Position numbers and translations under genes: made by a program. From contig JADQBQ010000001.1 of assembly GCA_016278505.1 (NCBI GenBank), positions 186,001 through 250,000 on the forward strand: a stretch of 64,000 nucleotides of DNA, written 5' to 3'. This stretch comes from Clostridiales bacterium (GTDB taxonomy: Bacteria; Bacillota; Desulfotomaculia; Desulfotomaculales; VENG01). This document shows, piece after piece, positions 3,026 to 64,000 of this stretch. How positions within the stretch are numbered: the stretch's first letter is position 1; each line of letters begins with the position of its first letter. A model generated the notes under the pieces. It saw only the letters and a list, made by a program, of their open reading frames with translations, was not told the DNA's origin and did no database searches.

Positions 3026-3422
3026 CTTCGTCCAGCACTTTAAGGCCACAATAACTGCAATAAATTCCACCGGTAGGCAACTCTTGCTCACATTCCGGGC
3101 AAACCGGAACTTTGGGCTGCAGGTTAGCAATCTGATCTTCCAGTGCTTTTGCTTCTTCCTCCAACTCCTTGGTTGCTTCCAAAAGTCTGTCTATCTCTGC
3201 TTGCAAGTCTTCCTCTCCGTTATGGTGCTGATAAACTAAAAGGCCTATCCCTGCTAAGTTATTTTCCATTTCCTTTTCCAATTTGGATAGTTCAAATTTT
3301 AATTTTGTCGCTTCCAGCAAACCGGATGACCTTTTACGAATGTCTTGTGCCTTGGAGGTTAAATCTTTTGCCTTGTCGCCTAACCCTTTAGCTCTGTTTC
3401 CCATCTTTTGTAGTAATTCCAA
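3009..3422 (-). CDS. Coiled-coil protein with C-terminal zinc ribbon
   Basis: This small protein of about 137 residues has a long charged helical N-terminal half (heptad-like KLEKEMENNL and LEATKELEEEAKALEDQIANL). It ends in a zinc ribbon, CPECEQELPTGGIYCSYCG, two CxxC knuckles typical of the zinc-ribbon_2 family. An upstream GTG at 3431 would overlap the AAAGGAGG site. TTG at 3422 sits 8 bases after it and is the better start; ATG at 3404 is a further option. No partner is evident, and no function is assigned beyond likely zinc binding and self-association. Confidence 0.75.
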   Translation of the reverse strand: MELLQKMGNRAKGLGDKAKDLTSKAQDIRKRSSGLLEATKLKFELSKLEKEMENNLAGIGLLVYQHHNGEEDLQAEIDRLLEATKELEEEAKALEDQIANLQPKVPVCPECEQELPTGGIYCSYCGLKVLDEENRSE

Positions 3423-3653
3423 AAACAACACCTCCTTTACAGTTTATTTAGCCAAAATTGGAATTATTCCTTCCTGTTAGTTAAATAAATCGTCCGACAA
3501 AAAGTTTAAACTAGAGTTTCCACCAAAAAGTCTGAGTAATGCGTTTAAGTAATTTATATAACCGTTAAACCATAATGCCGTACACATTAACATTAAATTT
3601 ATATAATAAAAGAACTAACCGTTTTTTACCTTTCACCCCGGAGGTGAGAAATT

Positions 3654-49792: not shown

Positions 49793-50003
49793 GTGGTAGT
49801 CAAGGGGTGTAGACATGTTTGTAATATTGGTTTATGATGTAAATGTAAATGAGTGGTGAAGGTTTTAAAAAATCCGCTAGGAATGGTGGAATTCTGCAGG
49901 ATTAGATGACGGATAATACTAGGTCATTATATAAGTGTTCAGACCGCTTACAGTATTCAATCCGAAATAATGGGCATAAAGAAGGGCAAATATTTGCCTG
50001 TAA
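49793..50003 (+). pseudogene. Decayed copy of cas2 with the end of the cas1-cas2 junction
   Basis: From 49793 the sequence repeats the cas1-cas2 junction and cas2 of 63055-63338. The shared text includes TGGTAGTCAAGGGGTGT, the ATG with MFVILVYDVNV, and a 3' part around GTGTTCAG and AATAATGGGCATA up to the stop. A one-base loss gives a TGA after 14 codons, and about 70 bases in the middle are deleted. It marks an old duplication of cas2 plus leader in front of array 1. Confidence 0.85.
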
Positions 50004-50176
50004 AATTTTTCCGTCGACATCCAATAGTGCAAAAACCCCCGGGGGGCGACGGAAAAAACGGCATGCTTTTGATGTAATTTTAGCTAAAGATAATAAAAAT
50101 CATCAATATGTGCTTGTTAAATCCTTAATTTTGCTGATAAAATGGCACAAACAAAACAAAATATGCGAAAAATCGG
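50004..50176 (+). promoter_or_regulatory. CRISPR leader of array 1
   Basis: A 173-bp A/T-rich leader similar throughout to the array 2 leader. Shared blocks are CCGTCG...CGACGG flanking a stem of C and G runs, TATGTGCTTGTT, CCTAATTTT-like text and AAAATATGCGaAAAA just before the first repeat. It points into the array, so array 1 is transcribed and extended from this side. Confidence 0.8.
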
Positions 50177-52548
50177 GGCCGTAGCCTACCTATAAGGAAT
50201 TGAAACTTGTGGTAAAATACTACAAAGCAGGCTCGGGCTTTGGCCGTAGCCTACCTATAAGGAATTGAAACCTTATAGCTTCTTTACCTTGTAACTCTAC
50301 AGCATATAAGGCCGTAGCCTACCTATAAGGAATTGAAACATCCATCAGGCGTATTTGGTTTGAGTCCGTCTCTGTATGGCCGTAGCCTACCTATAAGGAA
50401 TTGAAACCCCGGACCACCTGTTCCTGGCAGCGATCTAACTCTTGGCCGTAGCCTACCTATAAGGAATTGAAACTTAACTGCATTATATTGATGCTTCATT
50501 AACCCCGTTTTGGCCGTAGCCTACCTATAAGGAATTGAAACTCTTTTCCAGTGCGGCTTTCACCACGTCCGGGGCCATGGCCGTAGCCTACCTATAAGGA
50601 ATTGAAACAACAAAATAGTTAAATTTGCCGAAGCAGGTATTCCCCTGGCCGTAGCCTACCTATAAGGAATTGAAACATTGACAGTAAAATAAAATTGGAT
50701 CTACGACTAATTAGGCCGTAGCCTACCTATAAGGAATTGAAACTCAGAGGGGGCCATACCCTTATAAACCACAAAACCGGCCGTAGCCTACCTATAAGGA
50801 ATTGAAACACTCATAATCTTTCAATTCACCTTCCGTCAATTCCGGCCGTAGCCTACCTATAAGGAATTGAAACATAAGGGCTTCTGATTCGGTTAGCTTG
50901 ACAGCGGTTTCCGGCCGTAGCCTACCTATAAGGAATTGAAACCCATTAAGGCCCATAGGTGAAGGGTTTGACTGTTTAGTGGCCGTAGCCTACCTATAAG
51001 GAATTGAAACTTTTCTTCTTATTTAAATAATTACTGGGAAATACCGGCCGTAGCCTACCTATAAGGAATTGAAACGAGGATCGGAACCGGAAAGCACTGG
51101 TACAGCTATATACGGCCGTAGCCTACCTATAAGGAATTGAAACTTGACCTTGAAAAATCGGCGTACTCTGTTATTTCCAGGCCGTAGCCTACCTATAAGG
51201 AATTGAAACCAGTTGGAAAATATCTGCACCTTTGCTGTATACCTGGCCGTAGCCTACCTATAAGGAATTGAAACACCCTTGAGCGTAAGCCCCCGGAGGG
51301 GCTGCCGGCATTGGCCGTAGCCTACCTATAAGGAATTGAAACTAAAGGCGTCGTACCCATGTTTTTTAATTTCATCTGCGGCCGTAGCCTACCTATAAGG
51401 AATTGAAACTCATTTTAGATATATTGGTAAGGTCAATAATCATAACAGGCCGTAGCCTACCTATAAGGAATTGAAACTATAATACTGCACCTGATTCTTC
51501 CCCATTACCTCAGGCCGTAGCCTACCTATAAGGAATTGAAACTATATAAGATACTGGCAAAGAGCAAGACCCCCAAGACGGCCGTAGCCTACCTATAAGG
51601 AATTGAAACACCCATAATCTCTAAACGCATTGTGCGGAATCCTTTTCGGCCGTAGCCTACCTATAAGGAATTGAAACTGGAAATGGATTTGTAATTCTGA
51701 AGTAAATTAATCTTAGGCCGTAGCCTACCTATAAGGAATTGAAACACCTCCATAAATTAAATATAAAAAACTCTTGCAAACAGGCCGTAGCCTACCTATA
51801 AGGAATTGAAACCTGCTAAACGCATAAGGGTCACTAAATACAGATAAAGGCCGTAGCCTACCTATAAGGAATTGAAACAATGTAATCATTGCAAAAAAGT
51901 TTATTGCATAGTTTAAGGCCGTAGCCTACCTATAAGGAATTGAAACCTGGTACGAGACCCTAACTGCTGGAAGCCTAGTTCCTGGCCGTAGCCTACCTAT
52001 AAGGAATTGAAACACGGTTTTCCAGGTAAAGGTTTCTTCTTTTACCTGGGGCCGTAGCCTACCTATAAGGAATTGAAACGGAGCGTACTCCGCGCTAACG
52101 TGTTTACCTATTTCAGGCCGTAGCCTACCTATAAGGAATTGAAACTCAAAGGGCGGCTTGTGATCTAATAGCATACCATGTGCGGCCGTAGCCTACCTAT
52201 AAGGAATTGAAACTCAACTATTGTTACAAAGCTGATATACTTCTCAACTACGGCCGTAGCCTACCTATAAGGAATTGAAACTCCGTTGCGGATAAAAAGT
52301 TTTGCAGATCCCATATAGGGCCGTAGCCTACCTATAAGGAATTGAAACTATATCGTTCTAGGTGTTGCCCTTGGTTTCATTGTGAGGCCGTAGCCTACCT
52401 ATAAGGAATTGAAACATGACCCCGGCACAGGGGGTGAGGACGAAAGTGGCGGGCCGTAGCCTACCTATAAGGAATTGAAACCGATAACCAGTTGGTGTTT
52501 CAAACCTCTTATTTTGGTGGCCGTAGCCTACCTATAAGGAATTGAAAC
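50177..52548 (+). CRISPR. CRISPR array 1: 36 repeats, 35 spacers
   Basis: Thirty-six 30-bp repeats that appear identical begin GGCCGTAGCC, contain TACCTATAAG and end GAATTGAAAC. They are separated by 35 spacers of 35-39 nt. The 3' end AATTGAAAC is the type I-B handle. The repeat differs from that of array 2 only at positions 2-4 (GCC against TTT). I saw no duplicated spacer by eye. No degenerate terminal repeat is visible; the last repeat at 52519-52548 is intact. Confidence 0.99.
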
Positions 52549-52610
52549 AAACCGTCGGTGCGAGGTCTTTACCTTGTCAGTTAGCTGTTATATTATGATA
52601 ATCTTAAAAG

Positions 52611-52870
52611 GGAGCAGATCTACAGGCTTTGGATCGGACATTACAAGCGTTTAAACAGAGTCACCAGCACATGGTTTTGGTGGTCGATGAATACGGCGGC
52701 ATCGCCGGCTTTGTTTGGGGATCAGCGAAGTGTTTGACTTGCCGATGGATAACGATGATGAATATGATACACTGTGAGTTATGTGTTGAGTAAGGTGGTT
52801 GACAGACCTAAAGTTGTCGATATTATAGAACTTCCTGGCTATCGGGGTGGAGAATGTAGGCGGTCTACGG
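52611..52870 (+). pseudogene. Remnant of a CorC/HlyC-type CBS protein
   Basis: GADLQALDRTLQAFKQSHQH then MVLVVDEYGGIAGFVW matches the CBS-domain end of CorC/HlyC membrane-associated proteins (HMxLVVDEYGGxxG). After a gap, DLPMDNDDEYDTL resembles the start of the transporter-associated domain, then stops. Frameshifts and a deletion separate the parts. No intact start or membrane domain remains. Confidence 0.65.
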
Positions 52871-53030
52871 ATTCACCGCTGCATCCGTTAAATTATTCAA
52901 GAGAAGGAGATATGTGAAGCCAACCGCTGGCCTGAGTTAACTAAAGTAAGCTAAAGGTTTAGGTTCAAAGTTAATATAACGGCCGAAGCCCGGTTTTGGT
53001 ATTAGCTAGATTATACATTTGTGTATGATA

Positions 53031-53126
53031 ATGGCAGAGGTCTCGCCTTTTGTATATATTACGGGTAAGCAAGAAACATCTTTATTTGACATGTTAGCGC
53101 AGCGTTTTGCAATAAGTAAAGACTGA
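53031..53126 (+). CDS. Possible 31-aa peptide next to a terminator
   Basis: ATG 53031 opens MAEVSPFVYITGKQETSLFD then MLAQRFAISKD. No good ribosome-binding site is seen. A terminator hairpin starts at its last codons. It is included because it lies between array 1 and the mini-CRISPR; it may be chance. Apart from it and the CorC remnant, 52549-53280 holds nothing I can support. Confidence 0.25.
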   Translation: MAEVSPFVYITGKQETSLFDMLAQRFAISKD

Positions 53127-53165
53127 CTGCTTTCCCATTTTGGAAAACATGTCAGTCCTTTTCTT
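53118..53165 (+). terminator. Terminator in the array 1 to cas interval
   Basis: GACTGAC-TG-CTTTCC and GGAAAAC-ATG-TCAGTC form a long interrupted stem followed by CTTTTCTTCTTTT. What it ends is unclear; the array 1 transcript or a small RNA is possible. Confidence 0.65.
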
Positions 53166-53281
53166 CTTTTCATATTCAGAAAGATTATGCACAGACCGGA
53201 ACACTATGGTATCCGGAATGGGGGTAACAAGTTACGGCTCAGGAAGATTAGTTAAGATAAGGTGCCGTCTCCTGTCTTTTA

Positions 53282-53359
53282 AAGAAAACTCCTTGTAGGT
53301 AGGCTAATTGCAAGTAAATGAAAATGCGTTTAAATTCCTTTTAGGTAACGCTACAAAAC
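53282..53359 (-). ncRNA. Degenerate mini-CRISPR (CreA/CreR-like guide RNA candidate)
   Basis: Read on the minus strand, 53359-53328 is a degenerate copy of the array 2 repeat (GTTTTGTAGC, ACCTAAAAGG, ATTTAAAC) with two single-base insertions and a few substitutions. Then come 16 bases, GCATTTTCATTTACTT. A second degraded repeat follows from 53311 to about 53282 (TAGCCTACCTACAAGGAG, 16 of 18 bases as in the true repeat up to the AGGA block). The handle ATTTAAAC differs from ATTGAAAC at one base. A promoter directly precedes it. Layout pseudo-repeat, short pseudo-spacer, pseudo-repeat is that of CreA or CreR crRNA-like RNAs. Processing by Cas6 is inferred. Confidence 0.75.
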
Positions 53360-53361
53360 TT

Positions 53362-53390
53362 ATTGTAGCAATGAAGGTTAGTGCTGTCAA
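53362..53390 (-). promoter_or_regulatory. Promoter of the mini-CRISPR
   Basis: On the minus strand TTGACA (53390-53385), 17 bp, TACAAT (53367-53362). Predicted +1 near 53355, inside the first pseudo-repeat. One mismatch from consensus. Confidence 0.8.
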
Positions 53391-53405
53391 ATAGAAAAAA
53401 ACTAG

Positions 53406-53434
53406 TTGACGAGGTAATATTTTCTATGTATGGC
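53406..53434 (+). promoter_or_regulatory. Promoter of the DUF3800 gene
   Basis: TTGACG (53406-53411), 17 bp, TATGGC (53429-53434). It is divergent from the mini-CRISPR promoter; the two -35 boxes are 15 bp apart. Confidence 0.55.
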
Positions 53435-53451
53435 AAAGCAAAGAATATTAA

Positions 53452-54529: not shown

Positions 54530-55294
54530 TTGCATCTGTGTTTGTCTCTGCGGGAAAAGAACGGCGAACTTGTTTTGCCCATTCACTATAACCGCCTTAT
54601 TCAGGGCGCCATATATAACAATATATCTACTGAACTGGCAGCATTTCTCCATGACCGGGGGTATGTGTACAATGGCCGCAGTTTTAAATTATTTTCATTT
54701 TCAAGAATATTGGGAAATTACAAATTAGACAGGGTAAATAAACAAATATCTTTCAGTGGAGATGTAAAACTTTACATCTCTTCACCGGTGCAGGAATTCT
54801 GTACTTCACTCATGGGTTGTCTGTTGGGGGAAGGTATTCACCTGGGCGGGACTTCGGTGGAAGTTGTGGGGATTAAGGCTGAAAAACCGGTGGTAAGCGG
54901 GGAGGTTATCGAGGTTGAACTTCTTTCCCCTGTGGTGATATACAGTACTTTTTTGAAACCGGAAGGGGGGAAGTATACATGTTATTTCCATCCAGGGGAG
55001 AAGGAGTTTGTACATCTATTGGAGACCAATCTGAGGAAAAAATATAGGGCTTTTTACGGGACGGAACTCCCGGAGGGCGATTTCGGTGTAGAAACCTTGA
55101 ACCGGCCGTGCCTTAATATCACTATGTACAAGCATACAGTAATAAAAGGGTACAGCTGCCGCATTAAGCTGGGTGGCCCCCCGGAGTTACTGCAGGTGGC
55201 GGTAGACGCCGGACTTGGAGGAAAAAATTCCCAAGGGTTCGGTTATATCCGGTTGTGTGGTAACGGTAGTGGCGAAAGGAGGGGGCAAAGTTGA
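54530..55294 (+). CDS. cas6: Cas6, crRNA-processing endoribonuclease
   Basis: Cas6 (254 aa) cuts the precursor crRNA within each repeat, leaving the 8-nt 5' handle. Two ferredoxin-like folds are expected; the C-terminal glycine-rich loop GLGGKNSQGFGYIRL (~residue 228) is diagnostic. A His in IHYNRLIQGAIYNNI near residue 19 is typical of the N-terminal part. TTG 54530 follows AAGGAGGG. It is the first gene of an eight-gene cas operon and overlaps cas8b by 4 bp. Confidence 0.92.
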   Translation: MHLCLSLREKNGELVLPIHYNRLIQGAIYNNISTELAAFLHDRGYVYNGRSFKLFSFSRILGNYKLDRVNKQISFSGDVKLYISSPVQEFCTSLMGCLLGEGIHLGGTSVEVVGIKAEKPVVSGEVIEVELLSPVVIYSTFLKPEGGKYTCYFHPGEKEFVHLLETNLRKKYRAFYGTELPEGDFGVETLNRPCLNITMYKHTVIKGYSCRIKLGGPPELLQVAVDAGLGGKNSQGFGYIRLCGNGSGERRGQS

Positions 55295-57399
55295 TTATTG
55301 AAAGTTTGATCAGGCTCGGGCGCCCCATGGTGGAAGGGGGACTTCCACCTGCAGCAATACTGCGGCAGGTATCGGATGTTGCCGAAGTTGGCGCCAAGAG
55401 CTTTATGGCCCGGGTTTTTGTGGTTGAAGTGGACAGGCAAGGAGATAAGAGTAATATAGCGGTGTTGCCCGTGCAACAGTGGGGAGATTACCATGACCAG
55501 AGTTCGAAGGGCAAAAAGCAGGTTTTTCAGCAGGATGTGGGGAGGGCGGTGGGGGCGCCCTTCATCATACCCAGGGGAAACCCGTTGAAACCTCAAGGAC
55601 GGTATGGCGTACCTTCTTATTTGGTGTATGATAAGCAATTCCATAGTTTTTTTGAGGATGCAGGTGAATTGGAAAAGTTTATCTCCGGCAGGTTGAAAAA
55701 GTCTGTGGGTATTGACTTATCCAGCCAAGAAGTAGAACAAATTGCTCTACAGCTGCATCAGGCGGTTAATAACATGGATAAAGGATCCGGGGAAAAAATG
55801 CTGGGCCTGATTGTGCTGACGCTGCCGGGGGAAAATGAACCTTATCAGTTAAGGGAAGAGATTCCGGTTGGCAACGATTATCTGGCTGATCTAGGTCCCA
55901 GTGTGCTGCATCAAGGAAAACATTTAGTGGCGGATCTGAACCGGGTAAAAGAAAGGTTTTGGGAGGCTAAGTTGGCCGAAGGGGCTGAAATGGGGGAGCG
56001 GGAAGGGCCGGGTGCCGTTTGTTATTTTTGCGGAGAGGAGGGGCGTGTTGTTTCTTCCTATTGTAAGGCCTGGTCATGGTTTACCACCACCTGGAGCTGT
56101 CCCCTGCCGTCTGCTCTAAAAACCGGTGAGTTGGTGGAAAGCATAGCCCTATGCCCTGGTTGTTACAATGCTTTGACTTATGGGGCCAATCTGTTTAATA
56201 AGTTAACAAAGCAGCTCGATAACTGGCTGGTTAAGGAGATATTCTCGCCCTCGGCTACTGCTGCGGGCAAAGAATTAACCAGGAAAGGTAGCACCCCGGA
56301 CGCTGTATACGGTTGTGCCTATGTTTTGCCGGTGCTGGACACCTTCTTGGAAGACGAAGATGATCGAAACGATTTTGTTGCCGGGGTAATATCCATGCTG
56401 GGTAACGGTTCCGGGCGAAATAAGGTAGACATGCACCTGCGGGAGATTACAGGGTTTGAAACCATCCTGCCTGCAGAAATGGCGGGTGATAACTACCGGA
56501 TGACTATAATATATTATTCCGGTGATTCGAGTCGTGGAGATATTCACCTGCGGGCCACCATAGAGGATGTGCTACCCTCAGTGGCCAGGGAACTAACAAA
56601 AATTACAGGTATTACGCGTCAATACGCCCTGCAGGTGGCCGAGAGCCTTTACAACGAACTGTCGGACAAGTACAAATACTTTTTGAGCAGTCGTTATGGG
56701 TCGCTACCCTATTTATTAACCACCGCTTATGGTGCTCCTTATACCTGGAGAACGATAGATGTCGTTCTCCACCGTGGCGAACTATCTAGGCGAGCATTCC
56801 TTTTTAATGTAGCGGATAGGATGAATGAGCTGGCCCGTAAGCTCCCCGACAGCTTTCAAGAGCTTTGCGGAGAGGTCATTTTCTATCTTACCTTTAACCA
56901 GCTTTTACTTCAATATGATAAAGCCATAGCAATAAAAACCGGAAACGGGGGGTGTAATTTGATGAGAGACTGGCGGGAATTATGCCGTTTGGTGGCGGAA
57001 GCACCGGCTGATGATTTGGATCTTAAGGATCCGGAGGAACTGGGTTTTGCTGCTGGTTGTCTAGTTCGGTTCTTTGATTGGAAATATCAGAAAAAAAGTA
57101 AGGAAAAAGGACAAGAAAAAAAGTTTTTGCAACACCGGGTTATGATTTTTGGCAGTAGTTTAACACCAGAATTTATATGGAAAAGGGCTCTCTCCCGTAT
57201 TGACGAGTATGCCTTGAAATTAAATATTGAACTCTCAAATAATTTTCAGCAGCAGGTTGCAGTGGTGCTCATGGAATACAGCCGGTTGAGGGATGAGGTG
57301 AACAGGGAAAGGGATGCCTTTATGGCGGCCTTTTGGGCCGGTTATGCTCTAGCTTGGACGGGAAAAGAAAAAAATGGTAAAGGTAAAAATAATTCTTAA
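55291..57399 (+). CDS. cas8b: Cas8b large subunit of type I-B Cascade (TM1802-like)
   Basis: This 702-residue protein sits in the large-subunit position and has the TM1802-family look: LIRLGRPMVEGGLPPAAILRQ at the N-terminus, then a zinc-binding region with CYFCGEEGRVVSSYCKA (~residue 243) and LCPGCYNAL (~288). In I-B systems Cas8b recognises the PAM and stabilises the R-loop. GTG-like/TTG start overlaps the end of cas6. The C-terminal ~120 residues are helical, as expected for a fused small-subunit-like part. Confidence 0.85.
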   Translation: MIIESLIRLGRPMVEGGLPPAAILRQVSDVAEVGAKSFMARVFVVEVDRQGDKSNIAVLPVQQWGDYHDQSSKGKKQVFQQDVGRAVGAPFIIPRGNPLKPQGRYGVPSYLVYDKQFHSFFEDAGELEKFISGRLKKSVGIDLSSQEVEQIALQLHQAVNNMDKGSGEKMLGLIVLTLPGENEPYQLREEIPVGNDYLADLGPSVLHQGKHLVADLNRVKERFWEAKLAEGAEMGEREGPGAVCYFCGEEGRVVSSYCKAWSWFTTTWSCPLPSALKTGELVESIALCPGCYNALTYGANLFNKLTKQLDNWLVKEIFSPSATAAGKELTRKGSTPDAVYGCAYVLPVLDTFLEDEDDRNDFVAGVISMLGNGSGRNKVDMHLREITGFETILPAEMAGDNYRMTIIYYSGDSSRGDIHLRATIEDVLPSVARELTKITGITRQYALQVAESLYNELSDKYKYFLSSRYGSLPYLLTTAYGAPYTWRTIDVVLHRGELSRRAFLFNVADRMNELARKLPDSFQELCGEVIFYLTFNQLLLQYDKAIAIKTGNGGCNLMRDWRELCRLVAEAPADDLDLKDPEELGFAAGCLVRFFDWKYQKKSKEKGQEKKFLQHRVMIFGSSLTPEFIWKRALSRIDEYALKLNIELSNNFQQQVAVVLMEYSRLRDEVNRERDAFMAAFWAGYALAWTGKEKNGKGKNNS

Positions 57400-57413
57400 A
57401 GGAGGCTTTTCCC

Positions 57414-58376
57414 TTGAGTATTAGTGGTGGAGAGGTTTTGTTCGTTAAGTGTGTAAAGGATGGTATCCCTAACAGGGATCCACTTAATGAAAGCGATGCC
57501 AGGAGAATGTTTGGAGAGGACGATGGGCGTATTTCCCTTTCTGATGTGAGTATAAAGCGTGATATGAGGGATTTTGTGCTGGCAAAGTGCCCAAATGGTG
57601 GAAAGGATAAACGTGATTTCATCTTCTGTCGCCAGGAGCGAACGGAAGATGGAAAACTGCTGGGCCGGCAAAATTTGGCTGAAAAGATACTGGAAGAGCT
57701 GAATATAAAATCATCAAAGAACAAGCGTGATAATCTATTGAAAGCTGCCTTTGATATGCGTGTTTTCGGCGCAGTATACAGTGTAGGGAAAGAGAGTTTC
57801 AACCAAACGGGCCCGGTGCAGTTCGGTTGGGCCCACTCGCTACACCCGGCGGAAACAAAATATGTGCAAGGCACTGTGGTCATGCCCAGTAAGGATGTAA
57901 AGGTTAACGAGCAGGGAGAGGGCCAGGGGAGTCAGCAGGGTACTATCTGGACTACCTATACATTACCCTTTGCGGTTTTCGCTATGCCGGCGGTGATAAA
58001 TGCCAATATTGCCCGGGATACGGGCATGGATGAAAACGATTTGGAACTGTTGTTGGAAGGGTTGTGGAAGGGGACTCAGTACCGTCAGGCACGCGGGCGC
58101 GGCATCCAGCAGCCTCTTATGATGCTGCATGTGGAATACAAGGATCCCTTTTTCCGTATTGGCTACCTGGAAGACTTTATTGAACTTAAACCCGAGCGGG
58201 AGGTTTGGCAGGGAGGAAATCCTCCAACTTCACTGCCGGAAGTGGAACTAAATGTTTCCGCTCTGGAAAAACTTTTATCTGAAAATGAAAATAGAATTGC
58301 CCGCATCCGTTGCTGGGTTCACCCGGGGCTGAGGATAACAGGGAATCTCCCCGGGGAAAAGCAAGAGCTGGCATAG
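57414..58376 (+). CDS. cas7: Cas7 (Csh2) backbone subunit of Cascade
   Basis: Cas7 (320 aa) polymerises along the crRNA spacer. GEVLFVKCVKDGIPNRDPLN opens the RRM fold; DMRVFGAVYSVGKESFNQTGPVQFGWAHSLHP is the family core, and ARDTGMDENDLELLLEGLWKGTQ follows. AAGGAGG precedes the TTG start at 57414. The Cas7 family sets every sixth guide base out of pairing, which matters for the mini-CRISPR match. Confidence 0.92.
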   Translation: MSISGGEVLFVKCVKDGIPNRDPLNESDARRMFGEDDGRISLSDVSIKRDMRDFVLAKCPNGGKDKRDFIFCRQERTEDGKLLGRQNLAEKILEELNIKSSKNKRDNLLKAAFDMRVFGAVYSVGKESFNQTGPVQFGWAHSLHPAETKYVQGTVVMPSKDVKVNEQGEGQGSQQGTIWTTYTLPFAVFAMPAVINANIARDTGMDENDLELLLEGLWKGTQYRQARGRGIQQPLMMLHVEYKDPFFRIGYLEDFIELKPEREVWQGGNPPTSLPEVELNVSALEKLLSENENRIARIRCWVHPGLRITGNLPGEKQELA

Positions 58377-58415
58377 TGGTAGGAAAGGTTTGGGGAGGTG
58401 AGGTAACTGAAACTA

Positions 58416-59120
58416 TTGGTATTTGACCTGCAGGGGAAGATGGCACATTTTCGCCGCCCCGATACTACAGGAACGCACGCCACTTACCCCTTTATAACCA
58501 GGACTGTTTTGCAGGGGCTAATTGCTTCCATACTGGGAATGGAACGTCTGACAGGGAATAACTGGGTGGGGATCCAACTGCTTTCCCCGGTGCATACCAG
58601 TTCTCAGGAGATGTCCATGCTGGGTAAAGGCTGGCTGGGTGAAGCCAGGAGCACCTTTAACCGGCCCACTTCGGTGGAATTAGTGATTTCACCCCATTAT
58701 CGTGTTTACTATACCGGTACGCACCTGGACAGGCTCGGGGAAATGTTGCGCGAAGGAAAGAGTCATTATCATACTTACCTGGGAAGTGCATACTGCCTGG
58801 TCTTTCCCCGGTTTACAGGATGTTATGATGTTCCGGAATTAAATCCCGGAGCCGGTATGGAACTGGTATGTAAAACCGTTGTCCCCAGCCATGTTATAGA
58901 AGGTTTGATTCCCGTAGATGGCGCACAATACGGCCGGGTGGGTGGAATGCATTACGAATACCTGGGAGAAAGGCGTTTCAGTGGTACAGTTAATGTCATT
59001 TACGAGACTGTAGGGCAACCTGTTGTCTTTCGGGTTCGGAACAATGAGGATGAAAAATTGAGGGATAAACCAGTTAAATTCTTTTCCCGGCGGGAAAAAG
59101 AGGTGGTAGTCCTGTGGTAG
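58416..59120 (+). CDS. cas5: Cas5, handle-binding subunit of Cascade
   Basis: Cas5 (about 234 aa, I-B type) caps the 5' handle of the cr[21 protein letters not shown] at the N-terminus and [17 protein letters not shown] follow the Cas5h pattern. The reading frame begins with TTG 58416, but CTG 58407 (giving [10 protein letters not shown]) is closer to the usual Cas5 N-terminus and to the GGAGGTGAGG site. The end overlaps cas3. Confidence 0.88.
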
Positions 59121-61522
59121 TTCCAATAAAGGATTGTATTGCCAGGCCTGATGAGGAAAACGGAATGCAACATTTGCTGGTTGATCATCTGGAAGCGGTG
59201 GCTTTCAGCTGGGGAAAGACCGAGGAAGAGAAAGAAGATGCGTTGAAGTTCCTGGCCGGGCTTTTGCATGATGCCGGTAAGGCTCATGCAGGTTGGCAGG
59301 ATTATATCAATACACCGGAGGAGAAGCGCCGGAAAGGGCCGGCACATTCTCCTGCCGGTGCCACCCTTTTTTGTTATTGTGCCGTATGTTTAATAGAAAA
59401 GTGGCAATTAAAGGGAGTGGAGTTAAGGCAATTAAACTCTCTCGTCATGCGGTTGGCCAGGGATATTTATGACCACCATGGTCCCCTGGAGGATATCGGA
59501 CCCGAAGTGCCCTGGGTTAACACTTTACATCCAGAATTCTTTTGCGAAGTTGACCTGCCTGGTTTAATTGAACTCGTCAATCGTCATTTTCCTGAACTCA
59601 AACTTGGTCAAAATGGATTTGCAGACTGGCTGAATGAGTTTCCCCTCACCTGGGAGAAGTGGTATAACACTCTCCCAGGGTTTATAAAGCGCAAGTTGAG
59701 CGAGAAAGGGAATAAATACAGGAATGCGGCTGGGGCGGCATTGCGTTCGCTTTCTTCCGGTTTGATCGCGGGGGATCGTTACCATGCTGCGGATCTCAAT
59801 TCTCTTAGTCTATCCCCTGCAGCGGCACAAAGTGCTCTTGACCGCTTGATTTCTCTGTGCAGGGCCAAGGGTGAGGAAGTGCTTCACCTGGGAACTGCTT
59901 CACCGGAAATGGTAAGACTTAGGCAGTGGCTACAGGACTCCGTTTTTAACAACTACGTACGTAGTAAACAGGAGAGGTTTCTAAGCTTGTTGCTTCCCAC
60001 TGGCTTGGGCAAGACATTAAATTCTCTCAGGCTAGCAATGTCCTCTTGTGCCGTGGGAGAGCGGCAAAAAATAATCTATGTGGCCCCGTATCTCTCCATA
60101 TTGTCCCAGGCCACAGCTGAAATAAGGTCTTATACAGGGCTGGAAGTGGTTCAGCACCATCATTTATCGGTAATGGATGAGAAGCAGTCCGGTGAAGAAA
60201 TGGATGAAACTTTTCTATTGGCGCTGGAGGCCTGGCAAGCAGCTCCCATCATTACCACCACGTTCAACCAGCTTTTCCGGGCCCTGTTCCCCAGGCGTGC
60301 TCAACAAACAATGCGCCTCAAAGGCATGGAAAAGGCATTTGTTATTGTTGACGAACCGCAAATAATTGACGGGGCTGTCTGGAATTTATTTTTACAAATG
60401 CTGGACGCAGCGGCCAGGGAATATGACCTACAGGTATTGTTCACCACGGCCACCCTGCCGCCGTCTGATATGGTATTCCCCGGGGGGTTTGTTCCGCTGG
60501 CGCCTGATTTTAAAACTCCTGACCGGTATACAGTTGCGGTGCTTGAGGAACCTCTGGACCAGTACGGGGTCGCTGAAACGGTTTTGAATGAGATAGAAAC
60601 GGTGAGTTCGGTGGGTGTGGTCATGAATACCATTCGTGACGCAGCGACGGTGTATGAAATTATTAAAGATAAAATTCGGGCGGGAGTAGACTGCTATAAT
60701 CTGTCCGGGTGTATGACCCCTCTGCATAAAGCCGGAAGGATAAGGGAAATCGCGCTCAGATTGAAGTCCGGTGAACCAACTGTGGTGGTTTGTACTCAAA
60801 TTCTAGAGGCAGGGGTGGATCTAAGCTTCCGGTTGTTAATGAGAGCTTTACCTGTGATGCCTTCCATTGCCCAGGCTGCGGGAAGGGCAAACAGGCACGG
60901 TGAAGGGACAAAGGCACGGGTCATAGTCTTTCCTTTCCGCAGGGACGGGGAAACGGATACCAGGATACACGTATACCGTTCCATGATATCCCGGGAGGAA
61001 ACCAACGGCTGTATAGCACGCTACCCGTCATGGGAAGAACCGCTCACAGCCGGAGTGGTGCGCGAATTTTATGATCGCACTTTCGCCCGGAATGCTTGTA
61101 CTGCGGCCCTGGATAAGTTGACAGACGCTGCTTGCGGTCAGTGGTCCGCACTTTCAGGTATTAGCCCTTTCGGATCCGATGCACCCCGCATCAATCTTTT
61201 TGTACCGTGGGGTGAAGACTTACTAGAGGATAAAGCTGCAAAGCTTTTACACAGGTATGCACCTGAAGGGGTAGAACAACTTTACGAAAATTATGTTGAA
61301 GGCGAGCACAGGCGGCTGTCGTTTGTTGACCGGAAACGCTTTATGGCATTGCTCCAGTTTTTCTTGGTTCCTGTGAGTGATAAGCAGGCCTGCAAATTAG
61401 CTGCTTCCCTTAGTGATATTGCCATTCCTCGCTTGGCTAACCCCGGTAACTACTCGGAGGAAACCGGGCTGGCCCATTATAGCGATAAGGGAGAAGATGA
61501 TTTTGATGCTTGTTGCTACTAA
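59114..61522 (+). CDS. cas3: Cas3 helicase-nuclease
   Basis: Cas3 (802 aa) degrades target DNA after Cascade binding. The N-terminal HD nuclease shows [20 protein letters not shown] (HD at ~53) and [10 protein letters not shown]. The SF2 helicase part has Walker [10 protein letters not shown] (~293), motif [10 protein letters not shown] (DEPQ where DExH is usual, ~412), motif [22 protein letters not shown] and motif [14 protein letters not shown] (~588). GTG 59114 overlaps the cas5 stop. Confidence 0.95.
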
Positions 61523-61546
61523 TTTTTGTTCTGGGAGGCAAAAACC

Positions 61547-62053
61547 GTGCGGGATAATGAGATAAGGGTAGGCGGTACCCTCATCTGGTACTACTACGTT
61601 TGTAAGCGGGAAGTATGGCTTATGGGGCGGCAAATCACTGCTGACCAGGACGATACCAATGTGGTCCTGGGTCGGTTTTTTGCCGAGCAGTCCTACGGCA
61701 GAGAGAAAAAAGAAATAACTTTTGGCCATATGAAGTTTGATGTAGTGAGAAAAGACAGGCATGGACTGGTAGTGGCCGAAGTAAAGAAAAGCAGTAAGCA
61801 TATCAAAAGTGCAAAAATGCAGCTGGCCTTTTACCTGTGGGAATTATTTCAAAAAGGCATAAAGGCAAGGGGCGAACTCCTTTTTCCAAAGGAGAAAAGG
61901 CGGGAGCTGGTAGAGTTAACTGATGAGTTAATAGATAACTTATTAGAGGCCAAAAGGGATATTTTGAGAATCATTTATGATTCTATTCCCCCTGAAGCTG
62001 TAAAGAAACAGATATGCCGAAATTGTGCCTATGCTGAGTTTTGCTGGTCGTAA
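61547..62053 (+). CDS. cas4: Cas4, RecB-like nuclease of spacer acquisition
   Basis: Cas4 (168 aa) trims prespacers and helps select PAMs with Cas1-Cas2. The Fe-S cluster cysteines are YYVCKREVW near the N-terminus and CRNCAYAEFCW at the C-terminus. The RecB motif VVAEVKKSSKHIKSAKMQLAFYL is intact. GTG 61547 follows GGGAGG; an in-frame TTG at 61526 overlaps it. Confidence 0.93.
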   Translation: MRDNEIRVGGTLIWYYYVCKREVWLMGRQITADQDDTNVVLGRFFAEQSYGREKKEITFGHMKFDVVRKDRHGLVVAEVKKSSKHIKSAKMQLAFYLWELFQKGIKARGELLFPKEKRRELVELTDELIDNLLEAKRDILRIIYDSIPPEAVKKQICRNCAYAEFCWS

Positions 62054-62066
62054 AGGGGGGACTTTT

Positions 62067-63059
62067 TTGAAAAAGACCATTTACATTTTTAATGACGGAC
62101 AACTAAAGCGAAAAGGTAATACGCTGTATTTTGAATCGGAAGAACAAAAAAAGTATCTTCCAGTTGAAGATGTGGGAGAATTAATGGTTTTTGGGGAGGT
62201 CTCCCTGAATAAAAAATTCCTGGAGTTTGCCTCCCAGAAAGAAATTATCATTCATTATTTCAGTTATTACGGTTACTACATGGGTAGTTTTTATCCTCGT
62301 GAGCACCTGAATTCAGGGCATATGATTCTGAAGCAGGCTGAGCATTACCTGGATGAAGAAGAGCGTATACGCATTGCCAGGCAGTTCGTCAGCGGGGCAG
62401 CCAGGAACATCAGGCAAGTATTGCGGTATTATAACAATCGTGTGGGAGGAATATCAGAAACCCTAAGCAGGGTAGACGAAGTGATCATGTCTCTGGATGA
62501 CTGCAGTGATATCAACCGCCTGATGGCAGCCGAAGGCAACATCAGGGACAGGTACTACAGGGTTTTCGACAGGATTACCCGTAACCCAGATTTCCCATTT
62601 GAGGAACGGTCCAGGCGCCCACCCAGAAACCACTTAAATACCTTGATAAGTTTTGGTAACAGCATCATGTATACCATAGCGTTGAGTGAGATCTACAAGA
62701 CGCACCTGGATCCACGCATAGGTTATCTTCACGCCACAAACTTCCGCAGATTCTCTCTAAACCTAGACTTGGCGGAAATCTTCAAGCCTATCATAGTAGA
62801 CAGGGTTATATTCAGCATATTGGGCAAAAAAATGGTAACCGCCAATGACTTTGCAGAAGAAGGCGAAGGGATTATGATGAAAGACCGGGCCCGCAAAACA
62901 TTCGTGCAGGAGCTTGACGCAAAATTAAAAACTACCATTAAACATAAAGGGATAGGGAGGCCAGTCTCCTACAGGAGGATCATGCGCCTGGAACTATATA
63001 AACTGGAAAAACACCTGATTGGGGAAAGTTTTTATGAGCCATTCATTGCCCAATGGTAG
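62067..63059 (+). CDS. cas1: Cas1 integrase
   Basis: Cas1 (330 aa, I-B type) integrates new spacers at the leader. IYIFNDGQLKRKGNTLYF opens the N-terminal beta domain. The catalytic part contains AEGNIRDRYYRVFD (active Glu), HLNTLISFGNSIMYT, IGYLHATNFRRFSLNLDLAEIFKP (His and Asp) and GKKMVTANDFA. TTG 62067 follows GGGGGGA; the frame extends upstream into cas4 but is not needed. Confidence 0.95.
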   Translation: MKKTIYIFNDGQLKRKGNTLYFESEEQKKYLPVEDVGELMVFGEVSLNKKFLEFASQKEIIIHYFSYYGYYMGSFYPREHLNSGHMILKQAEHYLDEEERIRIARQFVSGAARNIRQVLRYYNNRVGGISETLSRVDEVIMSLDDCSDINRLMAAEGNIRDRYYRVFDRITRNPDFPFEERSRRPPRNHLNTLISFGNSIMYTIALSEIYKTHLDPRIGYLHATNFRRFSLNLDLAEIFKPIIVDRVIFSILGKKMVTANDFAEEGEGIMMKDRARKTFVQELDAKLKTTIKHKGIGRPVSYRRIMRLELYKLEKHLIGESFYEPFIAQW

Positions 63060-63074
63060 TCAAGGGGTGTGGAC

Positions 63075-63338
63075 ATGTTTGTGATATTGGTTTATGATGT
63101 AAATGTAAAACGAGTGGTAAAGGTTTTAAAAACAGCCAGGAAATACCTGCACTGGGTACAAAATTCAGTACTTGAAGGTGAAATATCTAAGGCTAATTTC
63201 CATAAACTAAAGGCGGAACTCCGCAGTATTATCAATGACGAAGAAGATTCCGTGATTATATATGTGTTCAGATCCTTGCAGTATTCAAGTCGCGAAATAA
63301 TGGGCATAGAGAAAGGTGGTCAGGATATTTTCCTGTAA
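63075..63338 (+). CDS. cas2: Cas2, adaptation subunit
   Basis: Cas2 (87 aa) forms the core of the Cas1-Cas2 integrase. MFVILVYDVNVKRVVKVLKTARKYL, with the conserved Asp, NSVLEGEIS and SVIIYVFRSLQY are typical. ATG 63075 follows AAGGGGTG. A decayed copy of this gene with its leader lies 13 kb upstream. Confidence 0.95.
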   Translation: MFVILVYDVNVKRVVKVLKTARKYLHWVQNSVLEGEISKANFHKLKAELRSIINDEEDSVIIYVFRSLQYSSREIMGIEKGGQDIFL

Positions 63339-63512
63339 AAATTTTCCGTCGCCCCCCAATGATGTAAAAAACCCTGGGGGTCGACGGAACAAACGGTTTC
63401 GTTTTGGATAAATTCCGGTCAAAGTTCGTAAAAAACTTCACTATGTGCTTGTTTGATACCTAATTTTATTGAGAAATGACAGAAATCAATCAAAATATGC
63501 GCAAAAAATCTG
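63339..63512 (+). promoter_or_regulatory. CRISPR leader of array 2
   Basis: A 174-bp A/T-rich leader directly after cas2. CCGTCG-CCCCC and GGGGGTCGACGG can form a stem, and the element is shared with the array 1 leader, as is AAAATATGCGCAAAAAA at its array end. Confidence 0.85.
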
Positions 63513-64000
63513 GTTTGTAGCCTACCTATAAGGAATTGAAACCAAAGAAAAGCCTAGTTCTAAAAATGGTCGCACTTTATGTTTGTAGCCTACCTATAAG
63601 GAATTGAAACGAAAAGTTCCCAACCTGTCCTACACTGATAAATATATGTTTGTAGCCTACCTATAAGGAATTGAAACGCCTTTGCCATAGCATTAGCTGC
63701 CGCGCCAAAGATTGTTTGTAGCCTACCTATAAGGAATTGAAACCCAGGTCTATATTAATCACCCTTTCTTATTGGTTTCGGTTTGTAGCCTACCTATAAG
63801 GAATTGAAACGCGTAATTTTGTTAGAGTGTATCATTTTGCTATTGAGTTTGTAGCCTACCTATAAGGAATTGAAACTATAGAAACTCTTGCATTTCATAT
63901 GCTTCGCACTTTGGTTTGTAGCCTACCTATAAGGAATTGAAACCTAACACCATCACCAAAACCTAGAAAGTTGCCATCATGTTTGTAGCCTACCTATAAG
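63513..64000 (+). CRISPR. CRISPR array 2 (continues beyond the window)
   Basis: Eight 30-bp repeats beginning GTTTGTAGCC and ending GAATTGAAAC, the last cut off by the window end after 20 bases, with seven spacers of 36-38 nt. It differs from array 1 at repeat positions 2-4. It follows cas2 and the leader, so it is the primary array of this locus. Confidence 0.99.

Follow-up and report, generated by a model that had tools for sequence, protein, structure and literature searches.

Secondary CRISPR arrays served by a single cas locus have been covered in a survey of multiple arrays (Microlife 2026, PMC12814883). Motifs in the upstream part of leaders, and phased leaders that depend on IHF, have also been described (Santiago-Frangos et al. 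2021; Buyukyoruk et al. 2025), as these works are represented by their citation in PMC12259127. In Sulfolobus islandicus, the leader motifs of a type I-A system with an accessory factor affect how Cas1 binds and how integration proceeds at the leader-proximal repeat, according to the accessible part of that report (PMC9456107). Work on leader motifs and on their phasing is well established, and no novelty is claimed for the palindrome described below.

In this study, the origin of a secondary array was investigated in a window of 64,000 nucleotides, that is, the whole stretch of DNA analysed. Compared with the secondary arrays of the survey (PMC12814883), the founding event is legible here as a cas2 pseudogene attached to a copied leader, and each of the two arrays has come to carry a private repeat variant. 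As in the phased IHF-dependent leaders, insofar as PMC12259127 presents them, a conserved motif lies far upstream in the leader, and its phase to the first repeat may matter; the motif here differs in being a palindrome of 48 bp whose asymmetric centre is conserved and which accompanies type I-B Cas1 in several phyla. The likeness to S. islandicus, within the accessible part of PMC9456107, concerns the presence of DNA motifs in the leader, and in contrast to that system the I-B operon yielded no gene for a dedicated accessory factor. The features on which the analysis rests are as follows, all on the forward strand.

49794 to 49814, forward strand: copied cas1-cas2 junction, with the last 6 nt of cas1 (TGGTAG) and the cas2 ribosome-binding region; 20/21 identical to 63054-63074
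49815 to 50003, forward strand: cas2 pseudogene with frameshifts and a 68-nt deletion at about 49881/49882, from alignment with 63075-63338
50004 to 50176, forward strand: copied leader of array 1, with 75% ungapped identity to 63339-63512
50177 to 52548, forward strand: CRISPR array 1, with 36 identical repeats GGCCGTAGCCTACCTATAAGGAATTGAAAC and 35 spacers
54530 to 63059, forward strand: type I-B cas operon, cas6, cas8b, cas7, cas5, cas3, cas4 and cas1, from PADLOC-DB matches and open reading frames
63075 to 63338, forward strand: intact cas2, the parent copy (Cas2b, E 8e-36, PADLOC-DB)
63339 to 63512, forward strand: leader of array 2, the parent copy, from alignment with the array-1 leader
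63513 to 64000, forward strand: CRISPR array 2, with 15 repeats (GTTTGTAGCC...) and 14 spacers, continuing past the window end

The operon together with cas2 (54530-63338) is a complete type I-B set in the order cas6-8b-7-5-3-4-1-2, and its products match Cas6b, Cas8b (E 3e-206), Cas7b, Cas5b, Cas3b, Cas4b, Cas1b and Cas2b in PADLOC-DB. A second, distant cas2 homologue (39%) is encoded elsewhere in the same genome (G000:C47:38517-38732) and probably belongs to another CRISPR-Cas system. The stretch after array 1 (52549-53450) includes a disrupted reading frame whose product would resemble a CBS-domain (CorC-like) protein (HMVLVVDEYGGIAGF), which points to decay in at least part of the DNA that separates array 1 from the operon.

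A degenerate copy of 63054-63512 precedes array 1 at 49794-50176; it comprises the last 6 nt of cas1, the whole of cas2 and the leader. The copy aligned to its parent with a local score of 231, against a maximum of 35 in shuffled sequences. When 63050-63515 was searched with blastn against the whole genome (3.92 Mb, 56 contigs), it retrieved itself and two halves of 49794-50177 (E 5e-27 and 9e-48), and no third copy of the cas2-leader segment was found above chance. The first-pass annotation, which had reported such a copy with a frameshifted cas2 lacking about 70 bases, was thereby borne out: the alignment contains the 68-nt deletion and several small frame-breaking indels, and the pseudogene escapes detection by tblastn. 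The homology sets in abruptly at 49794, which corresponds to a point 6 nt short of where the cas1 stop codon ends. The 60 nt upstream of it gave no sign of cas1 homology and aligned at about the level of shuffled sequence (p 0.89). The two leaders are alike along their full length (75%) within this genome, and the leaders of other genera align with them only in the palindrome and the repeat. The cas2 copy is 81-87% identical to the intact gene, and either of them is 68-73% identical to the nearest outgroups, which argues for a duplication within the lineage. No other genome of the same genus was present among those searched. The founding of array 1 by duplication of cas2 and leader, as first proposed from the window, is well supported, and cas2 remnants of the same kind adjoin arrays in other genomes.

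We consider it probable that a segment of cas2, leader and repeat was duplicated upstream of the operon and seeded array 1, after which the cas2 copy decayed. The duplicated segment, traced by homology, would have run from the last cas1 codons through cas2 and the leader to at least one repeat. The new site would have formed a self-sufficient acquisition origin, made up of a leader with a phased 48-bp palindrome and a first repeat, into which the intact Cas1-Cas2(-Cas4) of the operon could insert spacers in trans. If the founder repeat carried GGCC for GTTT, established CRISPR biology predicts that the variant was copied at each insertion, and the observed 36/36 GGCC repeats fit this. The redundant cas2 copy would then have decayed by deletion, frameshifts and unconstrained substitutions, the traces of which are present in the alignment. 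Neither the palindrome nor its distance to the repeat has left the range that is normal for the family, probably because acquisition needs both. Against this explanation, the leader has diverged by 25%, no less than cas2, the survival of the palindrome is not significantly above neutral decay at the estimated rate (P 0.13), and no array-1 spacer could be linked to a virus.

The divergence of the parts of the copy was evaluated in the pairwise alignment. In the junction, 20/21 positions matched. The cas2 part matched at 161/186 positions, with 78 bases missing and 3 extra, and the leader at 129/172, where indels were few. Ungapped identity amounted to 95% for the junction, 81-87% for cas2 depending on the aligner (81% from the stricter alignment) and 75% for the leader. 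The first-pass annotation had called the leader well kept relative to cas2 and had proposed this alignment as the check; the raw contrast counts against that description. Substitutions reach 25% in the leader and 13-19% in cas2, so that the leader is as heavily substituted as cas2 or more so (Fisher p 0.007 or 0.16, depending on the aligner). Indel events, counted by eye on the pairwise alignment, are less dense in the leader (2 vs 9 in cas2), but without significance (p 0.21). Since the intact cas2 is constrained and most of the leader is not, a raw pairwise comparison gauges the two parts poorly. Changes at cas2 codon positions 1 and 2 were therefore polarised, with the nearest intact cas2 genes (G019 and G049) as outgroups. 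Thirteen changes fell on the branch of the copy and one on the intact branch (binomial p 0.002), indicating that the cas2 copy was freed from constraint.

The leaders of related genera barely align apart from the 48-bp palindrome (consensus TTGTCGTCGACCTCCAATAGTGTAAAAACCCCCGGGGATCGACGACAA), which usually lies just after the cas2 stop codon. A weight matrix detected it in 80 of 92 array upstreams, and the remaining 12 are mostly sequence gaps or array calls that look spurious. The covariance model R1, which was built from 46 relatives with the window excluded, located the palindrome in 55/113 genomes of the order and in 110/398 genomes sampled across the phylum. It is also present in contigs labelled Nitrospirae, Poribacteria and Desulfopertinax with the same Cas1 type, and thus seems to travel with the cas genes. 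An array lies within 330 nt downstream at 157 of 195 distinct palindrome sites, and many of the other sites are near contig ends. Rfam yielded the CRISPR-DR2 repeats, two sub-threshold matches elsewhere and no match for the palindrome. At L270, L291 and L301, arrays with another type of repeat (e.g. GTTTATGACCCGGCTATAGGGGACGGAAAC) follow the palindrome at a distance of 100-170 bp.

The distances from palindrome to first repeat cluster in classes near 143, 154, 168, 179 and 190, about 11-12 bp apart. Across 97 non-redundant leaders, the best period was 11.5-12 bp (R about 0.5), which differs from the textbook 10.5 bp; none of 5000 jittered controls was as strong, a significance that is inflated by kinship among the genomes, which was removed in part. 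The palindrome offers a simple sequence mark of I-B leaders that are likely to be acquisition-competent, including those of arrays distant from cas genes. Both leaders of the window carry it, as follows.

50008 to 50055, forward strand: palindromic leader element, array-1 copy, 169 bp before the first repeat (model R1, 62.1 bits, E 6.7e-15)
63343 to 63390, forward strand: palindromic leader element, array-2 copy, 170 bp before the first repeat (model R1, 50.1 bits)

The array-1 palindrome is intact by the standards of the family, with a weight-matrix score near the family mean (56.3 vs 58.3). The two window copies differ at 10/48 positions, of which 2 fall in the 24 conserved and 8 in the 24 variable columns (p 0.07), and at two nearly invariant positions the deviating copy is that of array 2. 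In a simulation of neutral decay at the rate of the cas2 copy, about 13% of runs left a palindrome score as good as that of array 1. Purifying selection on the array-1 palindrome is thus suggested. The earlier proposal that selection keeps the leader and not the cas2 copy stands in its second part, given the 13:1 ratio of polarised changes; its first part is suggestive, with the raw divergence pointing the opposite way and the palindrome simulation and column contrast at the values given above.

The repeats record how array 1 grew. Each spacer insertion copies the leader-proximal repeat. All 36 repeats of array 1 begin with GGCC (GGCCGTAGCC...), and all 15 repeats of array 2 within the window begin with GTTT; the count of 36 agrees with the 35 spacers given in the first-pass annotation. 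Different repeat 5' ends between arrays also occur in other genomes of the set, for example G071 and G039. Because the private GGCC variant is uniform from the leader to the trailer end, array 1 either grew at its own leader from one founder repeat or lost its older repeats later. The variant in 36/36 repeats and the lack of any spacer common to arrays 1 and 2 suggest that the array was extended at its own leader after founding. Together with the intact, correctly spaced palindrome, the uniform variant supports the earlier proposal that the copied leader has worked in spacer acquisition, as far as sequence can indicate. The GGCC variant could also fold the start of each array-1 repeat (50177-52548) into a small hairpin, GGC-CGTA-GCC, which is absent from the GTTT repeats and might affect crRNA 3' ends.

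Array 1 could have been active once and be silent now. On a rival reading, it is a dead archive in which acquisition stopped long ago and the copied leader is decaying neutrally. The leader divergence of 25% and a palindrome survival compatible with neutral decay agree with this, as do spacers without a viral match: exact scans of IMG/VR with the two leader-proximal spacers of array 1 and spacer 1 of array 2 found none, and the array-1 spacers retrieved two records at E 0.2 among annotated phages, at least one of which largely covers the repeat. However, array 1 holds 35 spacers on a private repeat variant that is identical from end to end, its palindrome scores better than that of array 2, and the spacing to the repeat has been kept to 1 bp. 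We regard neutral decay of a long-silent leader as rather unlikely.

The probable course of events, namely duplication of a cas2-leader-repeat segment, has parallels in other genomes. We inspected 83 leaders with a palindrome and an array and without an intact cas2. Remnants of cas2 adjoin the palindrome at array 1 of this genome (G000) and in G039 (two), G011, G047 (two) and G069. Those of G039 comprise about the first 12-15 codons of cas2, those of G047 are cas2 3' ends with 88-91% identity to the genome's own cas2, and in G069 a cas1 piece is joined to the cas2 3' end before an orphan leader. A few further leaders among the 83 have cas1 directly upstream and are main loci with damaged cas2, not orphans. 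In G101 (C12, L166, reverse strand 3192-3458), a lone frameshifted cas2 with 91% identity to the genome's own intact cas2 precedes an array; the locus is unrelated and has no other cas genes, and the leader of this array falls in an assembly gap. The 5' boundaries of these two independent copies nearly coincide, at 12 nt before the end of cas1 in G101 and 6 nt in G000. Judged from these remnants, array founding behind a cas2 remnant recurs in five other genomes. In G019 (C2, L156 5464-7720), the palindrome, a leader and a 32-repeat array lie inside the operon between cas3 and cas4, and no array was found after cas2; this placement likewise suggests that the leader-array unit moves independently. 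A 22-codon C-terminal remnant of cas2 was also observed in G056 (C63, L161 316-381), directly after an apparent IS transposase end and before cas6. As a possible cause of the 5' boundary, a promoter at the start of cas2 was considered and rejected; both window copies match at 10/12, but 72 intact cas2 loci score like shuffled upstreams.

These boundaries bear on a different origin, in which the whole operon and array were duplicated in tandem and the upstream operon copy was then deleted up to the end of cas1, the cas2 remnant being a leftover of the deletion. Such an event would place array 1 upstream of the operon in the same orientation, as is observed, and the cas1-cas2 fusion in G069 is what it could leave behind. 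However, the flanks of array 1 contain no remnants of other cas genes, and the 3' flanks of the two arrays share no homology. The deletion would moreover have to stop 6 nt short of where the cas1 stop codon ends, and the G101 copy begins at almost the same point without other cas genes at its locus. We therefore consider tandem duplication of the operon unlikely.

It is likewise improbable that the palindrome works in the cas operon as a transcription terminator or an RNA hairpin and is not an acquisition element. In favour of such a role, it lies a few nt after the cas2 stop codon, its arms covary (56 double changes vs 28 in shuffles, far above slid controls) and the array-2 copy folds as RNA (-24.5 kcal/mol, z -2.6). 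However, it is also kept before arrays that have no cas genes next to them, among them array 1 and dozens of arrays elsewhere in the set. A terminator scan found no sense-strand site with a GC stem and a following T run in either window leader, and a terminator would not need the discrete distance classes to the repeat.

We tentatively raise the possibility that type I-B systems with this Cas1 type use the 48-bp palindrome as a portable acquisition origin. Phased to the first repeat, it would act as an inverted-repeat docking site for Cas1-Cas2(-Cas4) itself, and copying it along with part of the adjacent cas2 would be a usual way for these bacteria to found new arrays.

How extra CRISPR arrays are gained, and which parts of the leader are needed for continued learning, has so far mostly been inferred. 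At this locus the birth of an array is still legible, since the decaying cas2 marks the copied segment. The leader part that has been kept to the family standard provides a concrete DNA element for mutation, and the recurrence of the remnant pattern in several other genomes makes this founding route testable by comparative genomics.
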